Source: an uncultured Bacteroidales bacterium
GTDB taxonomy: Bacteria; Bacteroidota; Bacteroidia; Bacteroidales; Paludibacteraceae
NCBI GenBank assembly: GCA_902771935.1
Contig: CACXYM010000009.1
Coordinates: 1-60,560, forward strand
Length of the DNA stretch: 60,560 bases
Direction: 5' to 3'
Below the pieces are notes generated by a model. The model had not been told where the DNA came from. It worked only from the letters and a program-made list of their open reading frames with translations, and ran no database searches. Below, one piece after another: positions 35,338 to 53,041 of the stretch (positions are counted from its first letter, which is position 1; each line of letters opens with the position of its first letter). The translations under genes and the position numbers were made by a program.

Positions 35338-35895
35338 ATGCGCATGCTGATTTGCGACAATATGGCCCTTTGCACAGACGCTGAAGTACAGCGCCTGTTG
35401 CCGCTTGTGTCTGCTCAGCGTCGCGAAACGGCCTTGCGCTATAAGCACACCTTCGGTCAATGGGCTACCTTACAATCATGGATGATGTTGCGCGAACTAG
35501 GGTTGCCTGACCAACCTTGGGACTACAACGAATTTGGCAAACCTTTTCTGCCTGATGGGCCGTTTTTCTCGCTGTCACATTGTAAAAAAGGTATCGCCGT
35601 GGCAATGGATACGCAACCGATAGGCATAGATATTGAGTCCTATCGTGATGTTACGCCCGAACTGATTGAGCACTCTATGAGCCAAGCCGAGCAAGACCAA
35701 ATTAACGCTTCTGACGACCCGATAAAGGCTTTCATCGAACTCTGGACACGCAAAGAGGCCTACGTTAAGTATTTAGGTACAGGTATCGCCGGATTATCCG
35801 GTAATCCTAGACAATACTTAGACAACACGGCTGATGTTAGTCTGATTACAACTGCCACCAAAGACTACGCATACACTATCTGTACGAAATTGTGA
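35338..35895 (+). CDS. 4'-phosphopantetheinyl transferase superfamily protein
   Basis: A 185-residue Sfp-type transferase that loads phosphopantetheine onto a carrier protein. Motifs are FFSLSHCKKGIAVAM, then IGIDIESYRD with the magnesium-binding Asp and Glu, and WTRKEAYVKYLGTGI. The size suits a compact bacterial member. ATG 35338 is 1 nt after the yggS stop. Its stop overlaps the GTG start of tamB. Which carrier protein it serves (fatty-acid ACP or another) cannot be told here. Confidence 0.9.
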   Translation: MRMLICDNMALCTDAEVQRLLPLVSAQRRETALRYKHTFGQWATLQSWMMLRELGLPDQPWDYNEFGKPFLPDGPFFSLSHCKKGIAVAMDTQPIGIDIESYRDVTPELIEHSMSQAEQDQINASDDPIKAFIELWTRKEAYVKYLGTGIAGLSGNPRQYLDNTADVSLITTATKDYAYTICTKL

Positions 35896-38800
35896 AACGC
35901 ATTTATGCCATATTACTTACCTTGTTTGGTTGCATTCTTGTGACACTGGGTCTGTCTGTCCTCTTCCTCAAATCAGGACGTATCCAGACTGCGGCTGTAA
36001 GATTGGCGACTGACGAACTGAGCCGTGGACTCAACACCAATATATCCATTGGATCCGTGCAGTATGACTTTCCGATGCGAATCACGCTCAAAGATATCTA
36101 TATCGAAGATCTGCAACAAGATACCCTCCTTTATATTAAGGATTTCTATACTCGTTTCTCGCCGTTAGCATTACGTAATCAGCACTTGCGTTTTCCGGCT
36201 ATTGAGTTGGAAAAAGTGCGTGCCAACATCTATCAATTGCCCTCGGGCGAGTATAACTATCAGTTCCTGTTGGATGCTTTTGCGTCGAGAGACACTACCA
36301 AGTCGGCTTTCAATATGCATGTTGAGTTGCGCCACATTCAACTTACTGATGCCCATCTCACGTTCGATACGCTGGATGTGGTTATGCCAACTGCTAACCT
36401 CGCGCTCCATCACTTGTGTATGGATTCTTTGGATGCAGAGATACATAATCTCACAACCACGCTCCGTGTCACATCGAACAACAACCCGCCGCTGCAAGTA
36501 GACAATATATCGGCTCATGTTATTGCTTCGCGCACATCTATAGCCCTGCCGATTCTGCGACTTGAAATGCCTCACTCCAAAATTGATGCATCCGGCGTTC
36601 GCACTTCGTTCCCAACGGCTAAAGCGAACGAATCGTTTATTGCTTATCTGCATCGTAATGCGGATGCCATCAAACTGACATTAGATGTGGAGCATGCACA
36701 GATAGTACCTCGAGACTTGGCTTATTTTGACCCTTCACTTGCAAAGCTGGATGGTGTTATCGCTTGCTCAGCACACCTATCCGGAAGAGTGGATAGTCTT
36801 GCGGCGTATAACCTTGAGTTATTCTATAACGAGAGACGCCTTTTCCTCGGAAACCTCACAACATTAGGCTTGCCGCGAAAGGATTCCATTTATATCAACG
36901 CCAACTGTCAAGACTTATATGTCTATCAGCCTGCGATTCAGGATTTTATCTCAGATCTGCGTCAGCGGCCATACCATTTGCCGGCACCGCTCTTGCGATT
37001 GGGAGAGATTCATTATAAGGGTGAACTCAACGGGCAACTGCGCAAAATGACGCTGCATGGTGCTTTTCGTACCGCGTTGGGTGTTATCACGACGGATGCT
37101 ACATACACGGCCAACGAAGACTTTACTGCTTTGGATGTCAATGGCAAGATAGGTACCAAGCGCTTCCAACTTGGTCGACTGCTCAATAATGCCGACTTGG
37201 GAACAGTCTCCGTAGCACTCAATACGGATTGGCATTTCGCGGAGGAACTGGCTCCGTTCGGCAAGGCAGACGTTGTAATTAACAAACTTTCTTTCCGTAA
37301 GTACACCTATTCAGATATTCGTTTCCATGCCGAACTGAATGACCTCATTGCGAAAGTAACCGCTGCAATTGAAGATCCTAATCTAAAGATCTCCATCAAT
37401 ACCAAAGCCGACCTGCGAGAGACCGATAAGCATATTGATGCAGATATTATCTTACATCGCTTCCGTCCTGATCAACTGTTGATTATGGACCGCTATCCGA
37501 ATTTCGACTTGTCGGGTACGGCGTCTCTGCATTATATGGGTCATGATATTGACCATGCTACCTATTCTGCCTTGATTAATGGTGTAGAACTCAGTATTGC
37601 GGGCGATACAGCTTATATGGAGAGTCTCGAACTCAAATCTCGTTGGGCGAATAACCACCAGACACTGCGTCTGCGTTCTGATTTCCTCAATGCCGATGCT
37701 GCAGGCGATTATGCTTATACGTCGCTCCACACATCTATCTTCAAATTGATTGCTCAGCATATTCCGTCCGTCTTCTCTACTGCATTCTATAAGCAACTTA
37801 TGGCTACGCCGTCAAGTAACACCATCACTTTTAGTGTGCGGGCACATGATTTGGAGATGCTGCAGGCTATGTTGGAACTACCGTTCATGGTTACCGACAA
37901 TCCTATGCTGGAAGGTATCATCGACGAGCCGCATCAGTTGTGGAACCTGGAAGCACGGGTGCCTGCTTTCATCTTTGGTAGTGCAGAAATGAGCAATGTA
38001 GCGCTCGCATCGCGTAATAACAGCAAACTGCTTGACTTCATCTTCTCTATGGAGATGGATAGTACTCTTGTGGATCTTAATGCCCAAGCACAGCAGGATG
38101 AAATGCAACTCAACGCAACCATCAAAGCACTGCCTCCGCATAAAAGTAACGGCTCGGTGGATATGCAAACGCGCTTCTCACACTATGCCGGCTTGCCATT
38201 TATACAAACGCACATCAACCCATCCAATATTCAATTGGGTGACTCCATCTATCATATTGATGACTCACAAATCAATTATTGTGTAGCAGATACTTCGCTA
38301 TCCGTTCCGCACTTCCGCATCTACGGTTCACACCAGAATGTCTTAGCTGAAGGAGTAGCATCGCCACGCTTGGATGACTCTATTCACATCAATCTCAAAC
38401 ATATTAATCTCGGCACACTTATGCCTTTCCTACTGGTAGAGAAAGCTTTTACCGTAGCGGGCGACCTGACAGGCTGGGCGAATATCTATGGAGTCTTCTC
38501 AACACCTGTTTTTGAGGCGCAGGTAAGGCTTGACTCGGCTATCATGTGTGGAAAGTACGTTGGTACTGCCGTTGCCGGAGTGGAACTGGACCGTGTTACT
38601 AAGTCCATCATCATCGATGGTAACGTGGATAAGGGAACGCACCGCGTAGCACACGTGGACGGATTAGCCGAGCCTACCAAAGGGCGCTTCCTCATTGACA
38701 TCTTCCCAGACTCTATTCCAATTGGCTTCATTAACCATTGGACAGATGGCTTCCTCGAGAATATCGACGGAACAGCTTCAGGACGGGTTACCGTTTCAGG

Positions 38801-40295
38801 AGAAGGAAAGAAAGTCTGGGTCATAACCCGCGTCAAAGCACATGACGCGCAGCTCACTATACCGTTTACAGGCTGTACCTATCACTTCTCTGACTCCGTC
38901 TTTATGGATTCTACATCTATCATCTTCCCTGATATCCACCTGACTGATGACGAAGGCAATCCGCTCTATTTCAACGGATTACTGACTCATGATGAGTACT
39001 TCCGTAACTTTAAACTGGACCTCTCAGGACATTGTCGCCACACGCTGGCTTTTGATTTCCCGGCTAAGGCAGGACAGTTTATGGCGGGACATGTGTATGC
39101 TGACGGAGATTTCTTCCTTGAGGGACCGGATTATGACCTCAAGTTCACGGCTGATGCCAAAGCTGTCGGAAAGTCCAATTTCCGTATCTCCGTCGATGGG
39201 GCTTCGTCGGCAGCTGACAATGGATTTATCACCTTCATAGATCACAATAAACCCGATACGCTCACCGTTAAAACTAAACGCCATTTCATTCCCAAACGCA
39301 AGCAAGCGAAGACAAGTGACCGACCGTCCCGTTTCCGCCTTGGGCTCGCTATCGATGTGGACCCGCAAACGCTCTTCCAACTCGTCATCAATGAGGCTAC
39401 AGGAGACATGATTCAAGCGAGGGGAGACGGCTCTATCAAGTTTACCATGGATGATGCTACGGACGAGTACAAACTTGTGGGTACCTATACGCTTAATACC
39501 GGCAAAATGGACTTGACAGTTGCAAATATCATACACCGAGAGTTCAAAATCGCTGAAGGTTCACAAATCATGTGGAACGGCAATCCGGAAGAACCGCTGC
39601 TCAATGTCGCTGCTGAATATACTGTCGTCGCTAATATAAAGGACCTCTTTGGCTCGGAGACGGAAAACCTCGTTTCCGGACGAACTTCTATCCCCGTCAC
39701 TACAGTTGTCTATCTGTCAGGACCACTCAACGACCCTATTATGCGATTTGACCTTAGATTACCCAAGTCGGATGAAGTCATCGCTAATCAGGTGCGCTCC
39801 GTCATCAATACCGACGAAATGCTCATGCGGCAAGTCGTTTATTTACTCGTCTTCGGACGATTCTATACTCCTGAGTATATGGCCAATAATAACTCCCAAG
39901 CAGCCGTTAATACCTATTCGCTACTCTCGTCTACTATCACAGGGCAAATCAATAACTGGCTCTCTAAGATTACGGATGTCTTTACGCTCGGCTTCAACGT
40001 CCGTGCGGATGGTACCGGAAACAACTCCGCGCAAGAGTATGAGGCCGTCTTCCAGCTGCGACCTGTTGACCAACTCATCATCAATGGTAACTTTGGTTAT
40101 CGATATAACGACATCTCTAACAGACCTTTCTTCGGTGACTTAGATGTCGAATACTTGCTCACACCGAATGGCAAACTGCGACTGAAAGGATATACCCACA
40201 CTGTCGATAAGTACTCTCTCAGACAGGCTACCATGATTGAAGGCGTCGGCTTCGTTTTCAAACACGACTTCAACTGGAAAAAGGAAAAGAAATAA
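35892..40295 (+). CDS. tamB: Translocation and assembly module TamB
   Basis: A 1467-residue envelope protein of the TamB/AsmA-like group. An N-terminal membrane anchor (RIYAILLTLFGCILVTLGLS) is followed by long beta-taco repeats typical of bridge-like lipid transfer proteins. The C-terminal DUF490 block begins near residue 1150 and includes GTYTLNTGKMDLTVANIIHR, EFKIAEGSQIMWNGNPEEP and STITGQINNWLSKITDVFTL. It probably links inner and outer membranes for lipid or barrel-protein transport. The start is GTG 35892, overlapping the previous stop. It ends 3 nt before the convergent antiporter stop, with no terminator visible between them. A second, fused TamB-type protein is at 41648-46237. Confidence 0.92.
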   Translation: MKRIYAILLTLFGCILVTLGLSVLFLKSGRIQTAAVRLATDELSRGLNTNISIGSVQYDFPMRITLKDIYIEDLQQDTLLYIKDFYTRFSPLALRNQHLRFPAIELEKVRANIYQLPSGEYNYQFLLDAFASRDTTKSAFNMHVELRHIQLTDAHLTFDTLDVVMPTANLALHHLCMDSLDAEIHNLTTTLRVTSNNNPPLQVDNISAHVIASRTSIALPILRLEMPHSKIDASGVRTSFPTAKANESFIAYLHRNADAIKLTLDVEHAQIVPRDLAYFDPSLAKLDGVIACSAHLSGRVDSLAAYNLELFYNERRLFLGNLTTLGLPRKDSIYINANCQDLYVYQPAIQDFISDLRQRPYHLPAPLLRLGEIHYKGELNGQLRKMTLHGAFRTALGVITTDATYTANEDFTALDVNGKIGTKRFQLGRLLNNADLGTVSVALNTDWHFAEELAPFGKADVVINKLSFRKYTYSDIRFHAELNDLIAKVTAAIEDPNLKISINTKADLRETDKHIDADIILHRFRPDQLLIMDRYPNFDLSGTASLHYMGHDIDHATYSALINGVELSIAGDTAYMESLELKSRWANNHQTLRLRSDFLNADAAGDYAYTSLHTSIFKLIAQHIPSVFSTAFYKQLMATPSSNTITFSVRAHDLEMLQAMLELPFMVTDNPMLEGIIDEPHQLWNLEARVPAFIFGSAEMSNVALASRNNSKLLDFIFSMEMDSTLVDLNAQAQQDEMQLNATIKALPPHKSNGSVDMQTRFSHYAGLPFIQTHINPSNIQLGDSIYHIDDSQINYCVADTSLSVPHFRIYGSHQNVLAEGVASPRLDDSIHINLKHINLGTLMPFLLVEKAFTVAGDLTGWANIYGVFSTPVFEAQVRLDSAIMCGKYVGTAVAGVELDRVTKSIIIDGNVDKGTHRVAHVDGLAEPTKGRFLIDIFPDSIPIGFINHWTDGFLENIDGTASGRVTVSGEGKKVWVITRVKAHDAQLTIPFTGCTYHFSDSVFMDSTSIIFPDIHLTDDEGNPLYFNGLLTHDEYFRNFKLDLSGHCRHTLAFDFPAKAGQFMAGHVYADGDFFLEGPDYDLKFTADAKAVGKSNFRISVDGASSAADNGFITFIDHNKPDTLTVKTKRHFIPKRKQAKTSDRPSRFRLGLAIDVDPQTLFQLVINEATGDMIQARGDGSIKFTMDDATDEYKLVGTYTLNTGKMDLTVANIIHREFKIAEGSQIMWNGNPEEPLLNVAAEYTVVANIKDLFGSETENLVSGRTSIPVTTVVYLSGPLNDPIMRFDLRLPKSDEVIANQVRSVINTDEMLMRQVVYLLVFGRFYTPEYMANNNSQAAVNTYSLLSSTITGQINNWLSKITDVFTLGFNVRADGTGNNSAQEYEAVFQLRPVDQLIINGNFGYRYNDISNRPFFGDLDVEYLLTPNGKLRLKGYTHTVDKYSLRQATMIEGVGFVFKHDFNWKKEKK

Positions 40296-40298
40296 CCT

Positions 40299-41639
40299 TT
40301 AGTCCTTCTCACTCATGTTCTTGATGAAAAGATCGACCAACCGCTTTGTGATAACGGTATAGCGAACGGCATGACGGGCTTTGTCTGCCATCGATGGCTT
40401 GTTGTCCGATTGCTGTTTTTGTTGTTCTGCTTGAGTCACTTGTTCTTCCCGCTTATCAATCCTTGCGCGCAGACGCGCGGGAGCATGATTATATAAAAAG
40501 GTGTAGCACGGAACGGATGCCTTCATAATATATGGTGTGAGGAACGTAGTTACTACACTGGATGCCACGATTATCGGGTATAGCACCGGATTCATCACTC
40601 CAAGGTTAGTGCCCAAGGCGGCAATGATGAAGGAAAATTCTCCTATCTGCACAAACGAAAAACTGGTTAGCATAGAGTCACGCATGGTTTGACCACCCCA
40701 CCAGCAACCTAAAGTGCCGAAGGTAATCATGCCGACGATAATAACTACACACGTAATCAGGATACTTGACCAATGTTCAACCAAGTTAGCAGGGTTAATC
40801 ATCATACCAACCGAAACGAAGAAGATTGCGGCAAAAACGTTCTTGAGAGGTGTCATTAGCTGTTCTATACGATGCGACTCTGTGGTCTCAGCCAAAATAG
40901 TTCCCATCACAAAAGCACCAAGCGCGCTGCTGAAACCGGCTTCTTCCGCCGTAAGTACCATTCCTAAGCATAAACCCAAAGCAAGGATAATGAGTGTCTC
41001 GTCATTCAGGTACTTCTTCACCTTTCGTAGCAGGGTGGGGATAATAAGAATACCGAATACAAACCACACAACAAGAGTGGCTGCTAAAACGCCTACTTTC
41101 TTGAGCAGTTCCACACCTTCAAACTGATGTTTGATAGCAATACTGGAGAGTAAAACCATCAGCACTACCGCCACCACATCTTCAATGATTAAAATACTGG
41201 TTGCGCCCTTGACAAAACGTTCCTTGCCCAGTCCCGCCTCATCAATAGCCTTCATGACTATTGTGGTGCTGGACATACACAGCATGCCTGCAAGGAAAAG
41301 GGCGTTCATCATATCCATTCCTGCCCACTTACCGACACCGTAACCCAGAAGCATCATACCGCCAATGATAGTTAGAGCACCTATTGCGGCAACTTTGCCA
41401 CTGGCGAGCAGGTTCTTGATGCGAAACTCCAGACCAATACAAAACAGCACGAATAGAACGCCTATATTGCCCCATGCTTCTACGTTCTCAGGATTGACAA
41501 AACTCTTGCCGAACAGATATGGACCTACAATTACGCCGGCAACAATATAACCTAACACAACAGGTTGTTTCATTAACTTGAAGAGCAGACTCACCACGCC
41601 TGCAGTAATCATTAAAATGTAAAGATCGTGTACCATCAT
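40299..41639 (-). CDS. Cation:proton antiporter, CPA2 family
   Basis: A 446-residue membrane protein with about twelve helices, like KefB/KefC and RosB-type exchangers. Signature parts are KQPVVLGYIVAGVIVGPYL, IGVLFVLFCIGLEFRIKNLL, SSTTIVMKAIDEAGL and ILIIEDVVAVVLMVLL with the acidic transport residue, and FFVSVGMMINPANLV. The end is a short charged cytoplasmic tail with no RCK/TrkA-N domain, so regulation by NAD or glutathione as in Kef is not expected. Start ATG 41639 or 41636 cannot be separated. It is the last gene of the tyrS operon, 8 nt after the TamB-Omp85 fusion. Confidence 0.92.
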   Translation of the reverse strand: MMVHDLYILMITAGVVSLLFKLMKQPVVLGYIVAGVIVGPYLFGKSFVNPENVEAWGNIGVLFVLFCIGLEFRIKNLLASGKVAAIGALTIIGGMMLLGYGVGKWAGMDMMNALFLAGMLCMSSTTIVMKAIDEAGLGKERFVKGATSILIIEDVVAVVLMVLLSSIAIKHQFEGVELLKKVGVLAATLVVWFVFGILIIPTLLRKVKKYLNDETLIILALGLCLGMVLTAEEAGFSSALGAFVMGTILAETTESHRIEQLMTPLKNVFAAIFFVSVGMMINPANLVEHWSSILITCVVIIVGMITFGTLGCWWGGQTMRDSMLTSFSFVQIGEFSFIIAALGTNLGVMNPVLYPIIVASSVVTTFLTPYIMKASVPCYTFLYNHAPARLRARIDKREEQVTQAEQQKQQSDNKPSMADKARHAVRYTVITKRLVDLFIKNMSEKD

Positions 41640-41647
41640 ATATAATT

Positions 41648-44600
41648 TTAAAACGGATATCCAATGCCAAAATTGAGACGGAGGGCATCCAATGCCGAAG
41701 GGATATTGAAGTACGTGTTAATCGGTCGTGATTTGTCGGGCTTCCATTCTTTGTCGTACTTGTAGGTCTGGAATGGTGCATGAATGGCAATACCCAAATC
41801 AAGGCGAATAACTAATCCGTCTATATCAAGACGCAAACCGGTACCTGTGCCGAGTGCAATCTCGCGTAAAAGGGACGGATTGTTAATTAAACCATCGTAC
41901 AACTCTTCGCGTAGTTGCAGCCGCTCTACATAATCCGTGACACCTGCTGCCTTGAAAAAGTCGGCTGAACTATACCAGTTCCACACATTGCCTGCATCTA
42001 CAAAAGCGGCGCCGTAGAGTTTCCACACAATAGGGAAACGGAATTCGAAGTTCGCTTCTAACTTAACATCGCCTGCGTGGAAGAAGTTCTGATTGTATTT
42101 CTCGGAATAGAAGTTACCTGGTCCGTAAGCGTAGGGCGAAGCGGCACGCATACCATTGGGACCACCGGCGTAGAACGCTTCCGATAGAGGTGAGACAAGG
42201 GAGTTTCCAAGGGGTATGTTTGCTCCTGCAAATAAGCGCGTAGCGATGCAGATCCGGTCGGTTATATTGAACTTATTGCGCAGCTCGGCCTTCAATTTGA
42301 TGAACTGGTTGAACGTGATGGAGCCAAAGGGTTTATCCTGCTCATTCCACTTATGCCCAAAGGCGCAATAAAGCGCATTGATGAGGTTACCGGATTCCTT
42401 GACACCCAGTTCTAACATCGTGTTGACTACGCGAGCAGAGCGGTAGTTGTTATACGTAAAGTCATAGCCGATGGAAGGCACAAACTCGTTGCCGGCAATC
42501 ACCTTGATGAGTTGAGGGTAATCAGCCGCCTTGTCAAGCAAATCGTCTGCTTCTGCTTTCATCAAAACCACTGAGAGAGAGAACGGCGTGAAAGCATGTG
42601 TGATATACTTCGTAGGCTGGATGAAGTATGTGAACGAACCGGACAGTTTATGTACGCCGTAACCGCCTGCAATGTTCTCGTACTGATAACCTAACATATA
42701 TCGTGTATCACCATCCGGATTATTGTCACCTGCCCAATGCAAATAGGGAAAAATGAGCGAAGCGTTGATACCGAATTTATAGGTGTCTGTTTTCTTGGGG
42801 TCGCCGGGATGGCGATTACGTATCGCCCAATAGTAGGCTCCGTTGCCCTTAATCGTCAATGCTTCGCCTTTGCCCATCAGGTTCTTCATTGTGGACTTGA
42901 TAGTCAAGTCTGGACCGATACTGTTATTAGAACGATAGGCTATACCCGCATCTGCAATCAGACCATAAGTGCGATGGATACTATCCCCTTTATATAATTC
43001 TCTTCGACGCCAGTCTTGTTGTGCACGCACTCCCAAACCTGATTTGTACAATTCGCCCTCAAGGATATTGTTATAGTCGCGCTGGGAGAACGCGCGTAAC
43101 GACACGTTACCCGATTTGGTCAGTTTATATTCGGCAGACAAATCGTTGAGCAGTCCGCTCGTTTGGTTAACTTCGGGGTCATCGGTGATCGTTGAACCGA
43201 CGGTGATACGCAGGCGGTCTTTGAAGAAGGACTTGCTAATCGCGATATTCAAATCATTCGTCTTGCCTCCCGCATGCTCTGTCTGAGCGCTACTGAGATC
43301 TATATCCACCACCTTGCCCACTTTCGAATTAGCCATTGCCGCATTGAGACGACTGTTCACGATAGAGGAGAGAGCATATCCTTCACGCTGGGCTGCCACA
43401 TTGCTTTCACCCACGTACATACCTGTAGCCAATAATGTCGCTGCAAGACCTTCACGCGTGTCGTCATCAATATGGGTTAACTCGTTGGTCACTGCCTCAT
43501 CTTCCGGTGCTTCCAAGAAGAAACCTACCGAACGAATACCTATCGAGTCCAATTCGCCTTTCATGCGCACGCCTGTACGGAAGTTTACCCGACGCGTCTC
43601 TTCGCCTTGTGACTCCACGTCCGCCTTTACTTGTTGCGAAGCAGAGATATTCATTCGTGTCTTACCTATAGGACCATTGAACGCGATATGGCTGCCCGAA
43701 TCAACGTGGAACGGCATAATAGGGTAGGCTTTCGGAGAGTAGCGAACAAAGCCTTCATCCACATTCACTTGACCGCCTAACAACAAGGTGTCTTCTGCCA
43801 CCTCATACCGCACGTTGACTGTGCCGTGAGGCTTGACTTGAGCCATGTTCTTCTTATCAATAGGATAAGTGATATCTGTGACGGGCAGAATAGTGACAGC
43901 TACGTCGGCCACAATACTATCCAATGGACCGGTGACCTTACCTTGAATATCCGTCGCCAAATCACCATAGACCGGTATTGGACCGTCCTTATCCAGTTTC
44001 ACTGGAGCAAAACTGTCAGCAGCCAAAGCGATATCCAGCCGCATGCTATTCAAATCCAAGCCGCCGGTCAGTGCCAGATAAGTGCTGTCTACACCGTAAA
44101 TAGGAAGACCGTTGAAGTCCACCTTGTTATGGCTCATCACAATAGGTGTTTCACCTAAGGTCATCTTCACTTTGTACGGTTTGTACTCTGCCGACACACT
44201 CAGCGGTAGTACCTCTGCCGATAAATCCACTTGCTTCGGCAGACCATCTACGGACGCTTGCGCACGGATAGCACCATCAAGATCCAGATCTTCCATTTGT
44301 ATGAAACTATCTGCCAGTGCCAGTGGGATATCATCTAACTGCACATCGGTACGAAGCGCGTTCTCAAACGAATCCGACCGAGATACGAACATGTTGACTT
44401 TGTGGTCGCCGAACTTCCGTTCGCCCAGACCTAAATCGTCCAGGCTTAAACAACCTTTGCCGTTGAGGTCATTGCCTCTTCGTTCAACATCCAACCATAG
44501 GTCAGCATTGGTCTTCAGTCCGTGAAAAGACATGGCGCCGTCTGTTACTTTGCTGTCAGCGGTGAGCGAAGCCTTGGTGCTTCCTTCCGTCATCGTCACA

Positions 44601-46237
44601 TGCACGGCTGCTTTGGCTGCCGGCAAACGCAGCGCTGTACTGTCTTCAGAATGTTCAATCGCGGGCATCTGGGCGTCTATCGCCAAGTCTGTTTGCGCCT
44701 TGTATGACGTAAAAACAAGTCCCACTTCATCAATATCCAGCCCCGTCCGGTCAATAATAGGCTGTATCGGACTGCCGTGAGTGAGGTCGATGCGTGCCTG
44801 CAAAGACGGTATCTTGTGGCGCAACGTGTCTAATGTGGTCAGGTCAGATAAGTTGGTCAACGGAGCTATCACATTCGTGTCGCTCACGGTGGCGACGAAA
44901 GGCAGTATCGAATCAATCAGATGGAACAGCGGCATCGGACTTGTCACATCCACCTTCATTCCTTGTGTCTTCAAGTTGAGGGCTGTCTTTTCGTCTGTAC
45001 GAAAATCCATATCCAAGCCCGACAGATCGTATTCATCATAAACGCAATCATTCAGATGCATCTGAATGCTGCTCTTCATTGCACGCTTCGGGTTGATGCC
45101 TTTTCCTTCGGCGTCAATAGCACCTGCCACAACAACGCGCGTATTGTTTTGCATAAATGGAGACAGGTTCACGCGCTCCACATCCACATGTGCCGAATAG
45201 GCTTCATCGTCGATGTCGTAGTAGCCTTCCACTTGCGCCTTGCTTCCTTGGTACTCCGCATCGCATTTCACATCCACACGCATCGACGCAAGGTCCATCT
45301 TTGTCGCTTCCAAATCTGCTTGAGCACCTATCTCTTCTGAGCGCACATGCAGGTTGCGGCTCGTTATCAGGTTGCGTGCCAAATCGACCTTGGCATCGCC
45401 GTAAAGCGTATCTATCGGTATCGCCACTTCGCCTATGCGAAAACGCGTCCCGTCTAAATAAATACGCTTGGCGTCATACTTGTTTGCACCTACATCCACC
45501 ATAGCCTTCGTCAGTAGTGTCTTTAGACGTAGGTCCAGGTCTATCGGTGTCAGTTGGAAACGGATATTGCGCAATTCGCCGTCTGGCACATCAAAAGCCA
45601 GTAGCAGCGGTGTCGAGTCCTGCGCTGTCGTGTCAGGCTCTGTCTCGCGTAAGTCTATGCCTACATAGGTGTCGGATAAACGCAGACCGCGAAGCGGATA
45701 TTGACCTTTGGAGATAATCATTTCCGGACTACTAACGCCCAGATGACCAACAATCACATCAACGCCTACGGTGGCAATCAGGCTATCCGAATGAAACGTC
45801 GTGCGTTCTATCTCCAACTCCTCCACAGCAATCGGAACGGATAAGAACTTGCCAAACCCTTCATCCTTTAAGTTTTCGCCCTTCAACTTAACCACGGATT
45901 TCAGACGCAGGCGATGTACATATACTAAAGTATCTTCTCCGCGATGACCGATAAACACACTGTCTATCTTTACCTCTAATGGCAAATCCCCCTCTCCTGT
46001 ATAGGCCCTGTACAGAACCATTGGCGAGTGGTAGAACGGCGACAGGTATAGACCACCTACATCAATATCCATATCGGACTTCTCGTTGGCGAGAGCAAGA
46101 CCTTTTTCAAGCGCCGCCGAACGAAGGGAAGGTATATATAGCACGCAGCCGACTCCAACAATCAGCAACATCACCACACCTATAACTATGCCAGCTATAG
46201 AGAGTGGAACCTTCCACAATAGAGATTTATAACTCAC
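41648..46237 (-). CDS. TamB-type protein fused to a C-terminal Omp85 beta-barrel
   Basis: A 1529-residue single reading frame combining two normally separate proteins. Residues about 13-36 (VPLSIAGIVIGVVMLLIVGV) are an inner-membrane anchor. Residues about 40-950 are AsmA/TamB-like beta repeats. A DUF490-type end follows: SIVNSRLNAAMANSKVGKVV, IAISKSFFKDRLRITVGSTI (near 1000) and LSAEYKLTKSGNVSLRAFSQ. From about 1080 to the end it reads as an Omp85 barrel: FYAGGPNGMRAASPYAYGPG (about 1360) corresponds to the loop-6 VRGF/Y motif of BamA/TamA, and the last residues LNFGIGYPF form a Bam signal. No POTRA domains are seen. GTG start overlaps the upstream stop by 1 nt. A chain this long could span both membranes. 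Confidence 0.85.
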   Translation of the reverse strand: MSYKSLLWKVPLSIAGIVIGVVMLLIVGVGCVLYIPSLRSAALEKGLALANEKSDMDIDVGGLYLSPFYHSPMVLYRAYTGEGDLPLEVKIDSVFIGHRGEDTLVYVHRLRLKSVVKLKGENLKDEGFGKFLSVPIAVEELEIERTTFHSDSLIATVGVDVIVGHLGVSSPEMIISKGQYPLRGLRLSDTYVGIDLRETEPDTTAQDSTPLLLAFDVPDGELRNIRFQLTPIDLDLRLKTLLTKAMVDVGANKYDAKRIYLDGTRFRIGEVAIPIDTLYGDAKVDLARNLITSRNLHVRSEEIGAQADLEATKMDLASMRVDVKCDAEYQGSKAQVEGYYDIDDEAYSAHVDVERVNLSPFMQNNTRVVVAGAIDAEGKGINPKRAMKSSIQMHLNDCVYDEYDLSGLDMDFRTDEKTALNLKTQGMKVDVTSPMPLFHLIDSILPFVATVSDTNVIAPLTNLSDLTTLDTLRHKIPSLQARIDLTHGSPIQPIIDRTGLDIDEVGLVFTSYKAQTDLAIDAQMPAIEHSEDSTALRLPAAKAAVHVTMTEGSTKASLTADSKVTDGAMSFHGLKTNADLWLDVERRGNDLNGKGCLSLDDLGLGERKFGDHKVNMFVSRSDSFENALRTDVQLDDIPLALADSFIQMEDLDLDGAIRAQASVDGLPKQVDLSAEVLPLSVSAEYKPYKVKMTLGETPIVMSHNKVDFNGLPIYGVDSTYLALTGGLDLNSMRLDIALAADSFAPVKLDKDGPIPVYGDLATDIQGKVTGPLDSIVADVAVTILPVTDITYPIDKKNMAQVKPHGTVNVRYEVAEDTLLLGGQVNVDEGFVRYSPKAYPIMPFHVDSGSHIAFNGPIGKTRMNISASQQVKADVESQGEETRRVNFRTGVRMKGELDSIGIRSVGFFLEAPEDEAVTNELTHIDDDTREGLAATLLATGMYVGESNVAAQREGYALSSIVNSRLNAAMANSKVGKVVDIDLSSAQTEHAGGKTNDLNIAISKSFFKDRLRITVGSTITDDPEVNQTSGLLNDLSAEYKLTKSGNVSLRAFSQRDYNNILEGELYKSGLGVRAQQDWRRRELYKGDSIHRTYGLIADAGIAYRSNNSIGPDLTIKSTMKNLMGKGEALTIKGNGAYYWAIRNRHPGDPKKTDTYKFGINASLIFPYLHWAGDNNPDGDTRYMLGYQYENIAGGYGVHKLSGSFTYFIQPTKYITHAFTPFSLSVVLMKAEADDLLDKAADYPQLIKVIAGNEFVPSIGYDFTYNNYRSARVVNTMLELGVKESGNLINALYCAFGHKWNEQDKPFGSITFNQFIKLKAELRNKFNITDRICIATRLFAGANIPLGNSLVSPLSEAFYAGGPNGMRAASPYAYGPGNFYSEKYNQNFFHAGDVKLEANFEFRFPIVWKLYGAAFVDAGNVWNWYSSADFFKAAGVTDYVERLQLREELYDGLINNPSLLREIALGTGTGLRLDIDGLVIRLDLGIAIHAPFQTYKYDKEWKPDKSRPINTYFNIPSALDALRLNFGIGYPF

Positions 46238-47076
46238 TAAAAGCTCTTAAGCACACCAAACTTCAAACCGTACAACCCCGGGGTAAACTGGTTAGCCAGA
46301 AGGTTACGAAGTTTACCTGAGAAAAGAATCACATCATTGGTGTATTCATTATGCCGTTCGCCGGTATAGGGGTCCTTGTAACAGAATGTAGTGCCACTAT
46401 ATCCCAATGAGAGAATAGAGAAGAACATCTGGAAATCGCTCTTCCGGTTGAACTTGAAGACTATCACCGGTGATACCTGCACACCATACGTGATGCTGTG
46501 CTTCAGACCTTCGTAGTCCGTGCCATAAACCACACCATCTGTCACGCGTGGGAACTCCATACCCGTGTAAAGGTGCGTCTCTATCCAGATACCTACTTTA
46601 TCGCTGAATAGGGATTTGAGACGGTAGCGCACATATGGAGCCACTTCCCAACTACCTTGTTGAATGCGCAGTTCTTCCGATATCTTGGTGCCGGCCAATT
46701 CGTAACTGTACGTCGTAGCCGTATTCTGATAGGCTCCGCCGAAACGCAGTCCCAGATAAATCCGTTCTCTGAGGCGCCATCCTATTTCCGGTGTCACGGC
46801 TATTGACCAGCCGTTTTCCTTGCGGTTAGGACGTGAGTCGTGGTGGTAATAGATGTCGAAGTTATAACCATAATACAGCTTCTGTTTCCATAACGGAAGA
46901 TTGGCGGCAGCGGCACTGTCCGACTCTTGAGGAGTGGTAAGTGTCTTTGTCTCGCCGGCGATAGTGGCTATCACTAAGCCGTCTGGGGCACGTTTCTTTT
47001 CCTCTGCCCGTACATTACTTGTGCTGCATACTATACCAAGTACCAACAAACTGATAATCCAATACGTGCTTTTCAT
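46237..47076 (-). CDS. Predicted outer-membrane beta-barrel protein
   Basis: A 279-residue exported protein. Signal peptide MKSTYWIISLLVLGIVCSTS ends near VRA; a linker rich in serine, alanine and threonine follows, then a barrel of about ten strands (KLYYGYNFDIYYHHDSRPNR, IYLGLRFGGAYQNTATTYSY, VGIWIETHLYTGMEFPR). It ends GLYGLKFGVLKSF, with terminal phenylalanine. I do not recognise a named family. It lies 2 nt after tyrS, and its stop TAG shares a base with the GTG start of the TamB-Omp85 fusion, so it is likely a functional partner or client of that protein. Confidence 0.75.
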   Translation of the reverse strand: MKSTYWIISLLVLGIVCSTSNVRAEEKKRAPDGLVIATIAGETKTLTTPQESDSAAAANLPLWKQKLYYGYNFDIYYHHDSRPNRKENGWSIAVTPEIGWRLRERIYLGLRFGGAYQNTATTYSYELAGTKISEELRIQQGSWEVAPYVRYRLKSLFSDKVGIWIETHLYTGMEFPRVTDGVVYGTDYEGLKHSITYGVQVSPVIVFKFNRKSDFQMFFSILSLGYSGTTFCYKDPYTGERHNEYTNDVILFSGKLRNLLANQFTPGLYGLKFGVLKSF

Positions 47077-48538: not shown

Positions 48539-48736
48539 ATGAAATTTAGAGCTATTATTGGAGCTATTTTGGCTCTCGCAGCGGCATTTAGACTACTTTG
48601 TTTAATCGGTATCATCCCCCTGAACTTTTCGTCACAATGGGCAAATGTCTATGAACCTTATTTCGCTGCCGGAATTGTACTCTTCGTTGGAGCTTACGTC
48701 TGCTACGATTCCATCCGAAATCTCAAAAAAAAATAA
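48539..48736 (+). CDS. Small two-helix membrane protein
   Basis: A 65-residue protein with two hydrophobic helices (AIIGAILALAAAFRLLCLIG and EPYFAAGIVLFVGAYVCYDS) and a positively charged end (RNLKKK). ATG 48539 is preceded by the A/C-rich leader CAAACATT, seen before several starts here. A longer frame from 48422 runs through the promoter and is rejected. It lies 19 nt upstream of the BspA-like gene and shares its promoter. No function is known; many Bacteroidales have similar short membrane proteins. Confidence 0.7.
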   Translation: MKFRAIIGAILALAAAFRLLCLIGIIPLNFSSQWANVYEPYFAAGIVLFVGAYVCYDSIRNLKKK

Positions 48737-48755
48737 ACATAAAATAAATAAAATT

Positions 48756-51596
48756 ATGAGAAAAATGCTACTTACGCTGCTATGCGCAGTAATCACAACA
48801 ACCCTTTGGGCTGCGAGTCCTGTTGTAGGTGACACCCTTCGCTATGAGTACAAGGGTAATTCGCTTTACTACAAAATCACACAAAAGAACAGTAATGGCA
48901 ATGAAGTTACTATCGTCAGTGACGGCACGACGCCAGACTTTCCGTACACTTGGTCTGAGGCCAATAAGCCGGTAGGCGCTTTGGTCATTCCTAACACTAT
49001 CACCGATGCTGAGGACACAGAATATAAAGTGGCCTATATCGAACAAGATGCATTGCGCGCGGGTTCAGATAAACTGACCTCGATTGATTTTTCTGAAAAT
49101 ACTTTTATCACAAATATCAGCAATCGCGCTTTCATGGGATGTAACAATGTTACCAATATTACTTTGAGTGATTATATTGCTTATATCAGCGGTTATTGTT
49201 TCCAAGGATGCAAACTGACTTCTCTTGATTTGAAGAATGTGACTTATATTGGCATGGCTAATTTCGGTAGTTGCAATATTGATTTGGTTCATATTCCTAA
49301 AACGGTCGCTACCATAACAGACCAAACGTACTTGTTCAATCATGCCACTAAAATTACTATCGATGAGAACAATACAAAATTTGCGGTAGTTGGTAATGTG
49401 TTATACAACAAAGAACTTACGAAGATAATTTCGCTGCCGTTAGGCCTCACATCCGGTGAACTGCATATTGTACCCACGGCAACAAGTGCTCTTTACCGCG
49501 CTATGGAAGGTTGTAAAGCAACCATTTATTTCCATAGTCAGGTTCAACCGGATTGGGGACCGGATTACCGCAATTCTCCTGCCGGGGATGTCATTGTCAG
49601 ATGCCAAGACTATGAGTTCTATACCAACGGCACCTTCGTCGGCGAGTCCAACGACTTCTTCTATGTTAAATCCCTTACCGCCAAACTGCTCTATGATATC
49701 GATGTGGAGGCTGTGAACGGAACAGTTGTGTTCAGCGACACGACCAATTGTAATGAGGTGAAAGTCACGATTACTCCCGACGAAGGATGTGTGTTCATGG
49801 GCTGGGCAGACGGCAACACGGACAATCCCCGTGTCTTCACCGTCGTCAGCGACACCACCGCTACCGCTAACATCAAGAAGCCTATCGACGTGGGAGGCAC
49901 CTTCCGCGCCAATACCGTAGAAGGTGTGTCCGTATTGTATAAAGTGCTCACCAAAGAGACGGGCAATATGACGGTGCAAGTAGGCGAACTCAATGGTTTC
50001 CACGGCGCCAAATACGGTCAAGCAATTGATAAATCCTATAGCGGACCGCTTACTATCTCTCAAACAGTAAACTATTTTGACGAAACATACACGGTCGTAG
50101 CATTGGGCTCCGGAGCATTCAGTATGTGCGCAATCACCTCCCTCAGTTTGCCGAATACAGTACAGAAGTTAGAACAAAATAGTATCCAGGAGTGCACAAA
50201 GCTCACTGCTGTAAACATACCAGAGGGCATAACGATGATTCCTCGATATAACTTATCCTACCTGCATCAGCTGCAATCAATCACTCTCCCAACCTCGTTG
50301 AAATATATCTGCTCGGGTAGCTTAAATAACAATACCAAAATGGAAACTATCGTAAATTGGAATCCTTCCCAATACGAGCGCGTGGGTAATAACATTGGTT
50401 CGATGAACACCACATTTTTCAACGCTATTCCACTTGACTCATATAATGTATTGTATACAGGTGATATCGTTTTGCGCCAAAATGCACCTGCCGGCAAAGA
50501 TACACTGCTTATTAAAGACGGAACGCGTCTTATCTGTGGAGACCTTAAAGGCGATGAAACACTCACAACCATCGTACTACCCGCATCCCTTGAAGCTATT
50601 GGAGACAAGTCTTTCTATGGAATGCCTAACTTGACCTCCTGTATTATGAAAGCCACCAAACCGGTAGAAGTGTACATGGCACGAGACTCGCAAGACCCGA
50701 CCATGACTACTACTGCTGATAAACTCCGACTTGAACTTAGTTCCAATACAACTCCCGAAATAGCTACCGTCAAGTTCTATGTGCCTAAAACCGCTGTTAC
50801 AGCATACAGAGCGAGTGCTACCTGGGCTGGAATGGATATCCGTCCTATTGGCGGTTGGACTATCACCTTCGTTGACCATGATGGCGAATCGACTCAGCAA
50901 GTAGAACAGGGCGAGATGCCGATTGCTCCTACGCCTGCAGTCTATTACACAGCAGAGCATATGTACGTCTTCGACCACTGGAATGTTGCTATTGAAGCTG
51001 CAACCGCAGATGCTACATACGAGGCTGTTTACAGTGAGCAAGAGCTGCCTAAATACTATGTTTGCTTCTATGCTACAGAAGCTGATGCATTGGCACAGAC
51101 GAACCGCATTCTTCGCGTAGAGAAAGTACGTGGAACGAGTGCTGTAGAGAATGGCGTCGTAGCAGCTGGTAAACTGGATCCTCGCGCTTGTGAGATGGTT
51201 ACAGATTGGAACGGCGGCGACTTGTCGAACGTGACGAGCGAACTGCACGTATGGCCAATATGGGGAACGGGACAATATACCGTCGTATTCTATGTGGAGG
51301 AAACAGCCGTTAAGACCCTGAATAACGTAGAGTGCGGTGATTTGATTGAGGCTCCGACCGATTTCGTTGTTCCGGCAGGTAAGAAGTTCACGGGCTGGGA
51401 TAGCGACGCTTGGCAGAACACCGATGCCCTGAGTGGCAACCTCGATATCCATGCTGTTTTGGTTGATGATCCGACCTCTATCGGCCAAACCAATCAACAA
51501 TCAACAATCAACAATCAAAAATTGATGATTAACGGTCAACTCTTCATCCAACGTGGAGATGAACTCTTCAACGCCCAAGGTACAAGAGTGAAATAA
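48756..51596 (+). CDS. BspA-like leucine-rich repeat surface protein with InlB-type repeats
   Basis: A 946-residue secreted protein. Signal peptide MRKMLLTLLCAVITTTLWA is followed by GDTLRYEYKGNSLYYKI, shared with the next gene. BspA-type leucine-rich repeats occupy about residues 60-240 and 430-640 (SLPNTVQKLEQNSIQECTKL). Between and after them are divergent InlB B-repeats (VEAVNGTVVFSDTTNCNEVK, and the FDHWNV and FTGWDS stretches). The protein ends in a glutamine/asparagine linker coded by four AATCAAC-like heptamers, then the tail MINGQLFIQRGDELFNAQGT with RVK. The tail is probably an outer-membrane export or attachment signal. Surface adhesion is the usual role proposed for such proteins. 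ATG 48756 starts the signal peptide. Confidence 0.85.
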   Translation: MRKMLLTLLCAVITTTLWAASPVVGDTLRYEYKGNSLYYKITQKNSNGNEVTIVSDGTTPDFPYTWSEANKPVGALVIPNTITDAEDTEYKVAYIEQDALRAGSDKLTSIDFSENTFITNISNRAFMGCNNVTNITLSDYIAYISGYCFQGCKLTSLDLKNVTYIGMANFGSCNIDLVHIPKTVATITDQTYLFNHATKITIDENNTKFAVVGNVLYNKELTKIISLPLGLTSGELHIVPTATSALYRAMEGCKATIYFHSQVQPDWGPDYRNSPAGDVIVRCQDYEFYTNGTFVGESNDFFYVKSLTAKLLYDIDVEAVNGTVVFSDTTNCNEVKVTITPDEGCVFMGWADGNTDNPRVFTVVSDTTATANIKKPIDVGGTFRANTVEGVSVLYKVLTKETGNMTVQVGELNGFHGAKYGQAIDKSYSGPLTISQTVNYFDETYTVVALGSGAFSMCAITSLSLPNTVQKLEQNSIQECTKLTAVNIPEGITMIPRYNLSYLHQLQSITLPTSLKYICSGSLNNNTKMETIVNWNPSQYERVGNNIGSMNTTFFNAIPLDSYNVLYTGDIVLRQNAPAGKDTLLIKDGTRLICGDLKGDETLTTIVLPASLEAIGDKSFYGMPNLTSCIMKATKPVEVYMARDSQDPTMTTTADKLRLELSSNTTPEIATVKFYVPKTAVTAYRASATWAGMDIRPIGGWTITFVDHDGESTQQVEQGEMPIAPTPAVYYTAEHMYVFDHWNVAIEAATADATYEAVYSEQELPKYYVCFYATEADALAQTNRILRVEKVRGTSAVENGVVAAGKLDPRACEMVTDWNGGDLSNVTSELHVWPIWGTGQYTVVFYVEETAVKTLNNVECGDLIEAPTDFVVPAGKKFTGWDSDAWQNTDALSGNLDIHAVLVDDPTSIGQTNQQSTINNQKLMINGQLFIQRGDELFNAQGTRVK
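51492..51519 (+). repeat. Heptanucleotide repeat (AATCAAC x4) in coding sequence
   Basis: Three AATCAAC units and one AATCAAA code the linker before the C-terminal tail. Because 7 is not a multiple of 3, gain or loss of one unit would shift the frame and remove the tail. Two more degenerate units continue in the intergenic gap at 51600-51613. Confidence 0.8.
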
Positions 51597-51616: not shown

Positions 51617-53041
51617 ATGCGTAAATTATTCTTCTCGCTGCTACTTGCAGCCAGTACAATGACAATGTATGCCGCAGCCCGCGCACTAACAGAAAAAGTG
51701 CCGCAAAAGGGCGATACCATACGCTATGAGTATGCAGGCAATAACCTCTTCTACAAGATTACTTCCAAAGTGGAGGGTAAATATGAGGTGGTCGGCGCAA
51801 ATGGTGGTGGCGCTTATCCGGACTACTACCCCAATCCCGCAGATAAGCCCAAAGGAAATGTTATTTTCCCTGATTCTATTGAGGACTTCACGGGTGCCAA
51901 GTATGCCGTCGTCGGCATAGGTAATGCCTTGACCAACTGCGAGGAAGTGACTGGCCTGCAGGTGAATAATATCATCGAATCTCTGCCTTCCTATGGACTT
52001 GGTGGCACAAAAATCACTTCTTTCGACACCAAGAATGTCAAGTCAATAGGTTATGCCGTCTTCTCTGGTTTGAAACTCACATCCGTGCATATCGGTCCGG
52101 CACTTGAAACGTTTTGGGCTTTCTCCTACATGTTGGATTATGCAACAGATATCACCATCGACGAAGCCAATCCTAACTTCAAGCTTGAAGGGACGATGCT
52201 ACTCAGCAAAGACGGAAAAACGCTGGCTGGAATGCCCTTGTATATAGCAGATGCAGTCTATCGCTTGCCGAATAGCCTGGAACTGATTAAGGATAATGCA
52301 GTATCCAAACAAAAGGGAACATTGATCTATCCGAAGGTCATTCCATTTGAGCACAATAACCCCAGTCCAGCTTCGCATAATATGATGAACTGCCCGGTGG
52401 GCGTCGTGATTGTGCCGTGTCACTTACTTGAAGATTTTACAACTGGCGACTTCGGCAAGAACTTCTCAATGGCGGATACCGTAATCAGCCAACTGGTCTA
52501 TGAAGTAGCAGCAACAGCAGGGCCCAACGGTAGCGTGGCTATCGTGGACACCACGGACTGCAACCAGGTTACTATTACGGCTACACCTAACGTAGGCTGC
52601 AATTTCGTTGCATGGAGCACCGGTTCTACTGACCCGACCCTCGTGCTCAATGTCGTTGCCGACACAACCGTTAAGGCTATCTTTGAAAAGCAGACGTTCA
52701 CCGTCACCGTAGTGGCCGAGAATGGTACTGTAACCGCTAAGGACATGATGGACGCACCTGTTGATCTGTCACAGCCGATTGAGTACGGCATGAAGCTGAT
52801 TCTAATTGCTACGCCGAATGAGGGCTATGAGTTCGACAGCTGGACGAACTACGACCCTGCAACAGGTCTCACCGTCACTGAGAACATCACCGTCACAGCT
52901 ACCTTCAAGACTAAACCGGCCGGATTTGACCAAATAAATCAACAATCAACAATCAAAAATCAAAAAGTAATCATCAACGGCCAACTCTTCATCCAACGTG
53001 GAGATGAACTCTTCAACGCCCAAGGCACAAGAGTAAAATAA
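51617..53041 (+). CDS. Second BspA-like surface protein, paralogue of the preceding gene
   Basis: A 474-residue secreted protein. Signal peptide MRKLFFSLLLAASTMTMYAA, then KGDTIRYEYAGNNLFYKITS as in the upstream paralogue, a short set of BspA-like repeats (residues about 100-260), and two divergent InlB B-repeats (GPNGSVAIVDTTDCNQVTIT and VVAENGTVTAKDMMDAPVDL with FDSWTNYD). The end has a heptamer-coded linker and the tail IINGQLFIQRGDELFNAQGT with RVK, nearly identical in DNA to the upstream gene although the bodies have diverged. It is about half the size of its neighbour. The gap to the previous stop is 20 nt. A strong terminator follows at 53068. Confidence 0.83.
   Translation: MRKLFFSLLLAASTMTMYAAARALTEKVPQKGDTIRYEYAGNNLFYKITSKVEGKYEVVGANGGGAYPDYYPNPADKPKGNVIFPDSIEDFTGAKYAVVGIGNALTNCEEVTGLQVNNIIESLPSYGLGGTKITSFDTKNVKSIGYAVFSGLKLTSVHIGPALETFWAFSYMLDYATDITIDEANPNFKLEGTMLLSKDGKTLAGMPLYIADAVYRLPNSLELIKDNAVSKQKGTLIYPKVIPFEHNNPSPASHNMMNCPVGVVIVPCHLLEDFTTGDFGKNFSMADTVISQLVYEVAATAGPNGSVAIVDTTDCNQVTITATPNVGCNFVAWSTGSTDPTLVLNVVADTTVKAIFEKQTFTVTVVAENGTVTAKDMMDAPVDLSQPIEYGMKLILIATPNEGYEFDSWTNYDPATGLTVTENITVTATFKTKPAGFDQINQQSTIKNQKVIINGQLFIQRGDELFNAQGTRVK
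52937..52964 (+). repeat. Heptanucleotide repeat (AATCAAM x4) in coding sequence
   Basis: AATCAAC twice then AATCAAA twice, located before the C-terminal tail exactly as in the paralogue upstream; again 28 nt in total. Confidence 0.8.

Follow-up and report, generated by a model that had tools for sequence, protein, structure and literature searches.

The window analysed here, i.e., the whole stretch of 60,560 nucleotides from contig CACXYM010000009.1 (assembly GCA_902771935.1) of an uncultured Bacteroidales bacterium of the Paludibacteraceae, carries on its reverse strand a gene fusion that we designate as tamB2::tamL2-type (41648..46237, stop codon included, GTG start). We confirmed that its single uninterrupted frame of 1529 residues, already recognised in the initial annotation of this DNA, encodes a TamB-type protein fused to a TamL-type Omp85 barrel without detectable POTRA domains. 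Two proteins that ordinarily make contact between the inner and outer membranes are thus united in one long chain in some gut Bacteroidales. On the basis of homology and structure models we lean, with modest confidence, towards regarding this protein as a single-chain translocation and assembly module (TAM) that is held in the hybrid-barrel state, serves as a dedicated lipid conduit and originated from a tamB2–tamL2-type operon.

Architecture of the Fused Protein

Both halves of the frame are recognised by public profiles. Pfam TamB matches residues 795-1054 (E = 3.4e-16) and Pfam Omp85 residues 1310-1529 (E = 2.9e-14), and the fusion has thus withstood the Omp85 profile search of the C-terminal 450 residues, which was proposed initially as a means of refuting it. 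Positions 340-747 of the 747-position NCBIfam profile lipo_TamL align to residues 1095-1529 with 311 bits, a score below the model’s cut-off of 400, and profile positions 1-339 have no match anywhere in the window fusion.

Hidden Markov models (HMMs) built only from non-fused proteins (14 TamBs and 61 TamL-type proteins) were run with filters off on 81 rows, namely the window fusion and the best 80 of 538 relatives. At E ≤ 1e-3, the TamB C-domain HMM and the TamL barrel HMM each matched 81/81 fusions, and the HMM of the TamL signal peptide and POTRA region matched none of them (6/81 at E up to 10), having recovered all 61 TamL-type proteins as a control at E ≤ 1e-3. A hidden POTRA remnant was rejected for this reason, and the lack of POTRA domains reported initially extends to the whole set. 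The TamB C-domain match covers window residues 772-1077 (43007..43924; all parts of the fusion lie, like the gene, on the reverse strand), representing the TamB (DUF490) C-terminal region; the initial annotation was right about the domain, but its limits of residues 950-1060 were too narrow for both the Pfam and the HMM match. In genomes G010 and G035 the TamL profile match begins earlier, at positions 264 and 266, respectively. The C-terminal profile found no match at E ≤ 0.01 among the sequences of solved structures. The architecture fits the first proposal that a covalent linkage may stand in for the POTRA contact.

The TamL-type barrel (residues 1085-1529, 41651..42985) begins at strand 1, and the Omp85 barrel with a loop-6 motif and a terminal phenylalanine described initially is consistent with all these data: alignment places the loop-6 motif at residues 1358-1374 (42116..42166) with R1364 invariant across a 24-row fusion alignment, Pfam Omp85 was detected in 22/24 of these aligned fusions in a filtered scan, and the C-terminal residue is phenylalanine in 79/81 rows, the two exceptions being truncated frames. 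At the opposite end, the suggested inner-membrane anchor is supported by a predicted signal anchor (residues 1-34, 46136..46237) with a helix at 3-34 in the model and by a strongly hydrophobic 19-residue window predicted near the N-terminus in 79/81 rows; the lipobox is not conserved, a simple pattern giving a lipobox-like match in 3/81 rows only. The AsmA/TamB-like groove region between these parts (residues 35-900, 43538..46135) is represented by a long, strand-rich N-terminal AlphaFold2 model with a mean predicted local distance difference test score (pLDDT) of 85.8.

Recurrence and Distribution of the Fusion

Each of the best 80 of 538 relatives retained from the contig scan, a number that indicates conservation and not prevalence, possesses one fused frame of 1317-1672 residues, and the survey of related genomes suggested initially has thus revealed the same architecture outside the window. 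These loci are labelled as uncultured Bacteroidales, Paludibacteraceae and, in a few cases, Bacteroidaceae or higher taxa, and the source, where stated, is cattle, buffalo, yak, goat, sheep, deer or horse. Three frames are incomplete: L119 starts at window residue 286, L149 stops at window residue 1468 and L130 leaves its contig at window residue 1527. The breaks near one end of L119 and L149 represent either decay or sequencing error. Two different full-length fusions, L106 and L124, have a common accession prefix (UBA1180) and are either paralogues or the product of a mixed bin. A further 23 fused frames, one of them open at a contig end and nine also belonging to the 80 loci, were aligned with that of the window, giving the 24 rows mentioned above with a mean column identity of 70%.

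The window genome is a draft assembly comprising 46 contigs, and one can suppose that an assembly or sequencing artefact joined two genes, a missing stop and start between them having been named initially as grounds for refuting the fusion. However, the fused frame recurs in each of the 80 retained loci and in the 23 further relatives, and its joint is conserved; since a missing stop and start in a single assembly does not explain such conservation, we consider the probability of an artefact practically negligible. The view of the fusion as a unique oddity is ruled out by the same conservation across relatives.

To characterise the distribution of the fusion, we used genome samples of the genus and of other families, of the family, of the order and of the phylum, which overlap one another. 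With the TamL profile, a fused frame was found in 25/37 genomes of the same genus, the window’s included (that of G024 is truncated where its contig stops), but in none of 24 genomes from other families of the order. Since 12/37 same-genus genomes show no fusion, among them G011, G014 and G028, which are 98% complete, the fusion is either dispensable and lost or patchily acquired within the genus. The family sample contained it in 6/101 genomes (4/33 genera), all six also carrying one full separate TamL. In the order sample the fusion profile matched 53/393 genomes, 5 with fused and 48 with separate frames, and in the phylum sample it matched 11/395 genomes, of which only the window’s is fused; at the threshold used (E ≤ 1e-40) this profile could overlook fusions whose sequences diverge strongly. 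In another phylum sample, of 198 genomes, the TamL profile matched 148, and among the matches listed only the window’s frame is fused, all others having 733-936 residues. Independent fusions elsewhere in the phylum were thus not found among the matches listed. A plasmid collection gave 12 records with a relative, none of which spans 80% of the query at a single site; in those among the listed matches that are annotated over both parts (H2, H3 and H5), TamB and Omp85 are separate features.

The five fused genomes of the order sample belong to families f1 (two), f2 (one) and f101 (two), and the three from f2 and f101 also retain a separate TamL. Across the samples, the fusion occurs in two families of the order besides that of the window. 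The f2 fusion (G352) is 56% identical to that of the window, and the f101 fusions (G236 and G419) are about 60% identical to it over residues 401-1529; the separate TamLs of G352 and G236 share only 25% and 30% identity, respectively, with the TamL of the window genome. The gene neighbours of these three fusions (L210, L211 and L212) differ from the window’s, and in a quick tree the three fall inside a clade with L145-L147, L150, L157 and L160. Lateral transfer may be involved.

Probable Origin from a tamB–tamL Operon

Of 14 TamL loci from other families (L066-L079), five have a tamB immediately upstream in the same orientation, and the two frames overlap by 4 bases in L069 and by 26 bases in L070, these overlaps being approximate since start codons were set mechanically. 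A similar arrangement is described for Flavobacterium johnsoniae, in which tamL2 starts before tamB2 ends (Fjoh_1899/Fjoh_1900; PMC12045153). We used the names TamB2-type and TamL2-type because the proteins in question are second copies encoded in an operon of this layout.

The barrel tree (73 rows, including 12 of the 30 fusion barrels at hand) united the fusion barrels into one clade (100/100), which is sister to the TamL2-type proteins of genomes G057 and G059 (100/98). Other operonic tamB–tamL pairs in this family cluster with the main TamL. In the tree of TamB C-domains (23 rows), the nine fusion C-domains used likewise form a single clade (100/100), whose sister group is formed by the TamB2-type proteins of G057 and G059 (100/98); in these two genomes the TamB2- and TamL2-type genes overlap. 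Since the trees of the two halves are concordant, one fusion of one operon may be suggested. A TamB2/TamL2-type origin of the fusion is well supported by these phylogenies, and most likely a tamB2–tamL2 operon was fused once, with loss of the POTRA domains. It is unlikely that the main tamB and the main tamL were the genes that fused, because both remain separate in the genome and the two halves group in the trees with the TamB2/TamL2-type pair. A separate, complete TamL is encoded on a different contig of the window genome, and the absence of a separate tamL, for which a survey was proposed initially, was not observed either here or in the other fused genomes examined. Another contig of this genome also has two further Omp85-type matches located close together, L004 and L005 (open frames of 372 and 541 residues; G000:C7:239177-239698 and 242888-243670).

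The Joint and Its Predicted Structure

The alignment shows that the TamB half of the fusion extends to the natural end of separate TamB and that the barrel half begins at strand 1 of TamL2, the parts preceding this strand in TamL2 (signal peptide, lipid-anchor cysteine and POTRA region) being absent. The joint (residues 1077-1101, 42935..43009) is flanked by W1076, which follows the last conserved strand positions of TamB, and by R1102, which sits in barrel strand 1; both residues are present in 81/81 rows.

Structure prediction was based on alignments that took in 67/80 loci for the C-terminal and 54/80 for the N-terminal part, omitting near-identical rows, some others and, in the C-terminal set, L149. 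In the AlphaFold2 model, the TamB C-terminal (pseudosubstrate) domain (residues 978-1082, 42992..43306) has six predicted strands, as in Escherichia coli TamB (PMC12800296), and its last strand (1063-1082) and barrel strand 1 stand on either side of a two-residue turn (1083-1084) within a block of pLDDT 74. The barrel model matches TamA/BamA and has 16 long strands by count, the two short strands at 1492-1494 and 1500-1505 being left aside. Cryo-electron microscopy of E. coli TamAB revealed a hybrid barrel, in which strand 1 of TamA is paired with TamB’s final strand (PMC12800296). The two strands joined in the fusion are exactly the partners of this E. coli hybrid barrel. Such a hairpin is topologically natural: the outer-membrane strand ends at the periplasmic face, and strand 1 then leaves from it.

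The joint may, however, serve as a tether only, keeping TamB beside a self-closed barrel in lieu of the POTRA contacts, with the barrel still able to insert proteins and the TamB C-domain periplasmic or reversibly engaged. Some freedom would be allowed in the longer members, since 17-37 residues separate W1076 from R1102, and about half of the sorted E. coli TamAB particles are non-hybrid. Nevertheless, the spacing is 25 residues in 62/81 rows and the two-residue turn is predicted between confident strands, which favours a hairpin over a loose tether, and we consider the tether unlikely, although far from negligible. The basic residues that follow W1076 (arginine or lysine at 1077 in 63/81 rows and at 1078 in 74/81) might be taken as a sign of a precursor cut at the joint after export into TamB and a POTRA-less barrel at a 1:1 ratio. 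This explanation seems improbable: a barrel devoid of POTRA domains and of the lipid anchor would lose its known TamB contacts, and the residues flanking the joint, as well as its spacing, are conserved.

Proposed Mechanism

For the single-chain TAM we suggest the following scenario. Most likely, the adjacent or overlapping genes of a tamB2–tamL2-type operon were fused in frame, and TamL2 was deprived of its POTRA domains, lipid anchor and signal peptide; the natural last strand of TamB then leads, after a short turn, to the first strand of the TamL barrel. Sequence, trees and alignments support this part. Judging from homology and models, the N-terminal helix would anchor the chain in the inner membrane, while the lipid-binding beta-groove would cross the periplasm and end in the outer-membrane barrel. 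Since the linked strands are the pair of the E. coli hybrid barrel, the lateral gate is probably kept in its hybrid state, in which all strands might form a single barrel of 22 (6+16); this state would be favoured by the covalent design, and POTRA domains would no longer be needed. With strand 1 always occupied, the gate would be poor at templating foreign barrel strands, including the last strand of a client, which makes lipid delivery the likelier task. The fusion may thus represent a dedicated lipid conduit, the general TAM role being presumably kept by the separate TamL and TamB. The permanent locking of the hybrid state and the role of lipid conduit rather than barrel insertase are both inferred. 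A stronger version, in which a permanent hybrid barrel of 6 TamB and 16 TamL strands ends an inner-to-outer-membrane lipid groove, its built-in gate cannot template foreign barrels and lipid delivery is evolutionarily split from insertion, is tentative, with the balance somewhat against it.

Several observations weigh against the locked conduit and its proposed origin. Pfam TamB was detected in only 4/24 aligned fusions in the filtered scan, the TamB tree gave a long-branch warning, and the TamB2/TamL2 names rest on operon layout and second-copy status. The PDB matches of the N-terminal model found by Foldseek are weak (LptD, E = 9.4e-5; TamAB 9xdd_B, E = 0.11; TamB 5vtg, E = 0.37). The C-terminal model has a predicted template modelling score (pTM) of 0.54, pLDDT falls below 50 in several barrel loops as well as in the stretches 984-993 and 1018-1031, and the strand pairing across the turn, as well as closure with strand 16, is deduced solely from strand order. 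The 22-strand TamL–TamB hybrid modelled for F. johnsoniae has its pairing at the last TamL strand (PMC12045153), not at strand 1. Finally, a permanently engaged gate would depart from E. coli TamAB, in which hybrid and non-hybrid states occur at about 1:1 among sorted particles (PMC12800296).

The disputed question is whether TAM is involved mainly in protein insertion or in lipid movement, and what role the TamA–TamB hybrid barrel plays. That a conserved natural protein links the two pairing strands covalently and has no POTRA domains provides independent evolutionary support for the strand contact. Such a protein also gives structural studies a single-chain construct and allows the two proposed TAM activities to be told apart, which opens a disputed step in the building of the outer membrane to direct testing.

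Gene Neighbourhood

Directly upstream of the fusion on the same strand, a gene at 46237..47076 (-) encodes a small protein of 279 residues, which overlaps the fusion start by one base, in agreement with the small-barrel gene noted initially. It is predicted to be an outer-membrane protein from a reading of its sequence by eye and has no Pfam or NCBIfam match; it may be a partner or client of the fusion. Perhaps the fused TAM is a client-specific secretion device serving this protein, since its homologue occurs immediately upstream on the same strand in 50/80 loci. However, the homologue was not found in 26/80 loci (four of which have no room for it), lies elsewhere in the locus in 3/80 and downstream in 1/80, and the fetched f2 and f101 fusion regions gave no BLAST match to the small protein, which makes this role highly improbable. 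In L213 (G068, g33) and L214 (G069, g34), the gene just upstream instead encodes a large protein that by eye resembles RND-type pumps.

An ordinary separate tamB (35892..40295, (+), 1467 residues) is convergent to the fusion, and the cell thus has two TamB-type proteins, as was stated initially. The convergence noted there holds, but the two genes are not directly adjacent: a cation:proton antiporter-like gene (40299..41639, (-)), named from its sequence, lies between them, just downstream of the fusion. Two neighbours on the forward strand, 48645-51596 and 51617-53041, have the same C-terminal tail, INGQLFIQRGDELFNAQGTRVK, which we take to resemble a type IX secretion sorting end.

Comparison with Known TAM and Omp85 Systems

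The initial annotation knew of no described fusion of this type, and our full-text searches of the open-access literature brought up no report of a TamB–Omp85 fusion, judging by the titles and abstract openings listed, subscription papers and preprints being outside this scope. The words “fused” and “fusion” are absent from PMC4494059, and the sole “fusion” passage in PMC4104836 concerns BamA and BamB. The latter paper describes an Omp85 “noNterm” group of barrels without an N-terminal extension and hence without POTRA; the fusion differs in that a whole TamB takes the place of the POTRA domains.

The TamB2–TamL2 pair resembles the fusion in its operon layout, and the pairs of G057 and G059 are the closest sampled relatives of both halves. 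In F. johnsoniae, these are two proteins, TamL2 being a predicted lipoprotein with three POTRA domains (PMC12045153), whereas here there is one chain without a lipobox or POTRA. The tamB2 and tamL2 genes of F. johnsoniae can be deleted and their function is unknown according to the authors, while the main TamL and TamB could not be deleted (PMC12045153).

The likeness to Borrelia BamA–TamB (BB0795/BB0794) consists in the TamB contact at barrel strand 1, since in the AlphaFold3 model the six C-terminal TamB strands complete a barrel beside BamA strand 1 (PMC13382580); the chains are, however, separate, and BamA retains its POTRA domains. E. coli TamAB similarly combines a TamB groove with an Omp85 barrel, in which, in the hybrid state, the last TamB strand meets strand 1. 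It differs in that POTRA 1-3 make contacts, and deletion of POTRA 2 is lethal in the authors’ assay while that of POTRA 1 or 3 causes growth defects (PMC12800296); the fusion has no POTRA domains at all. These comparisons indicate that the parts of the protein belong to known families, while the single-chain, POTRA-less TAM architecture is itself new.
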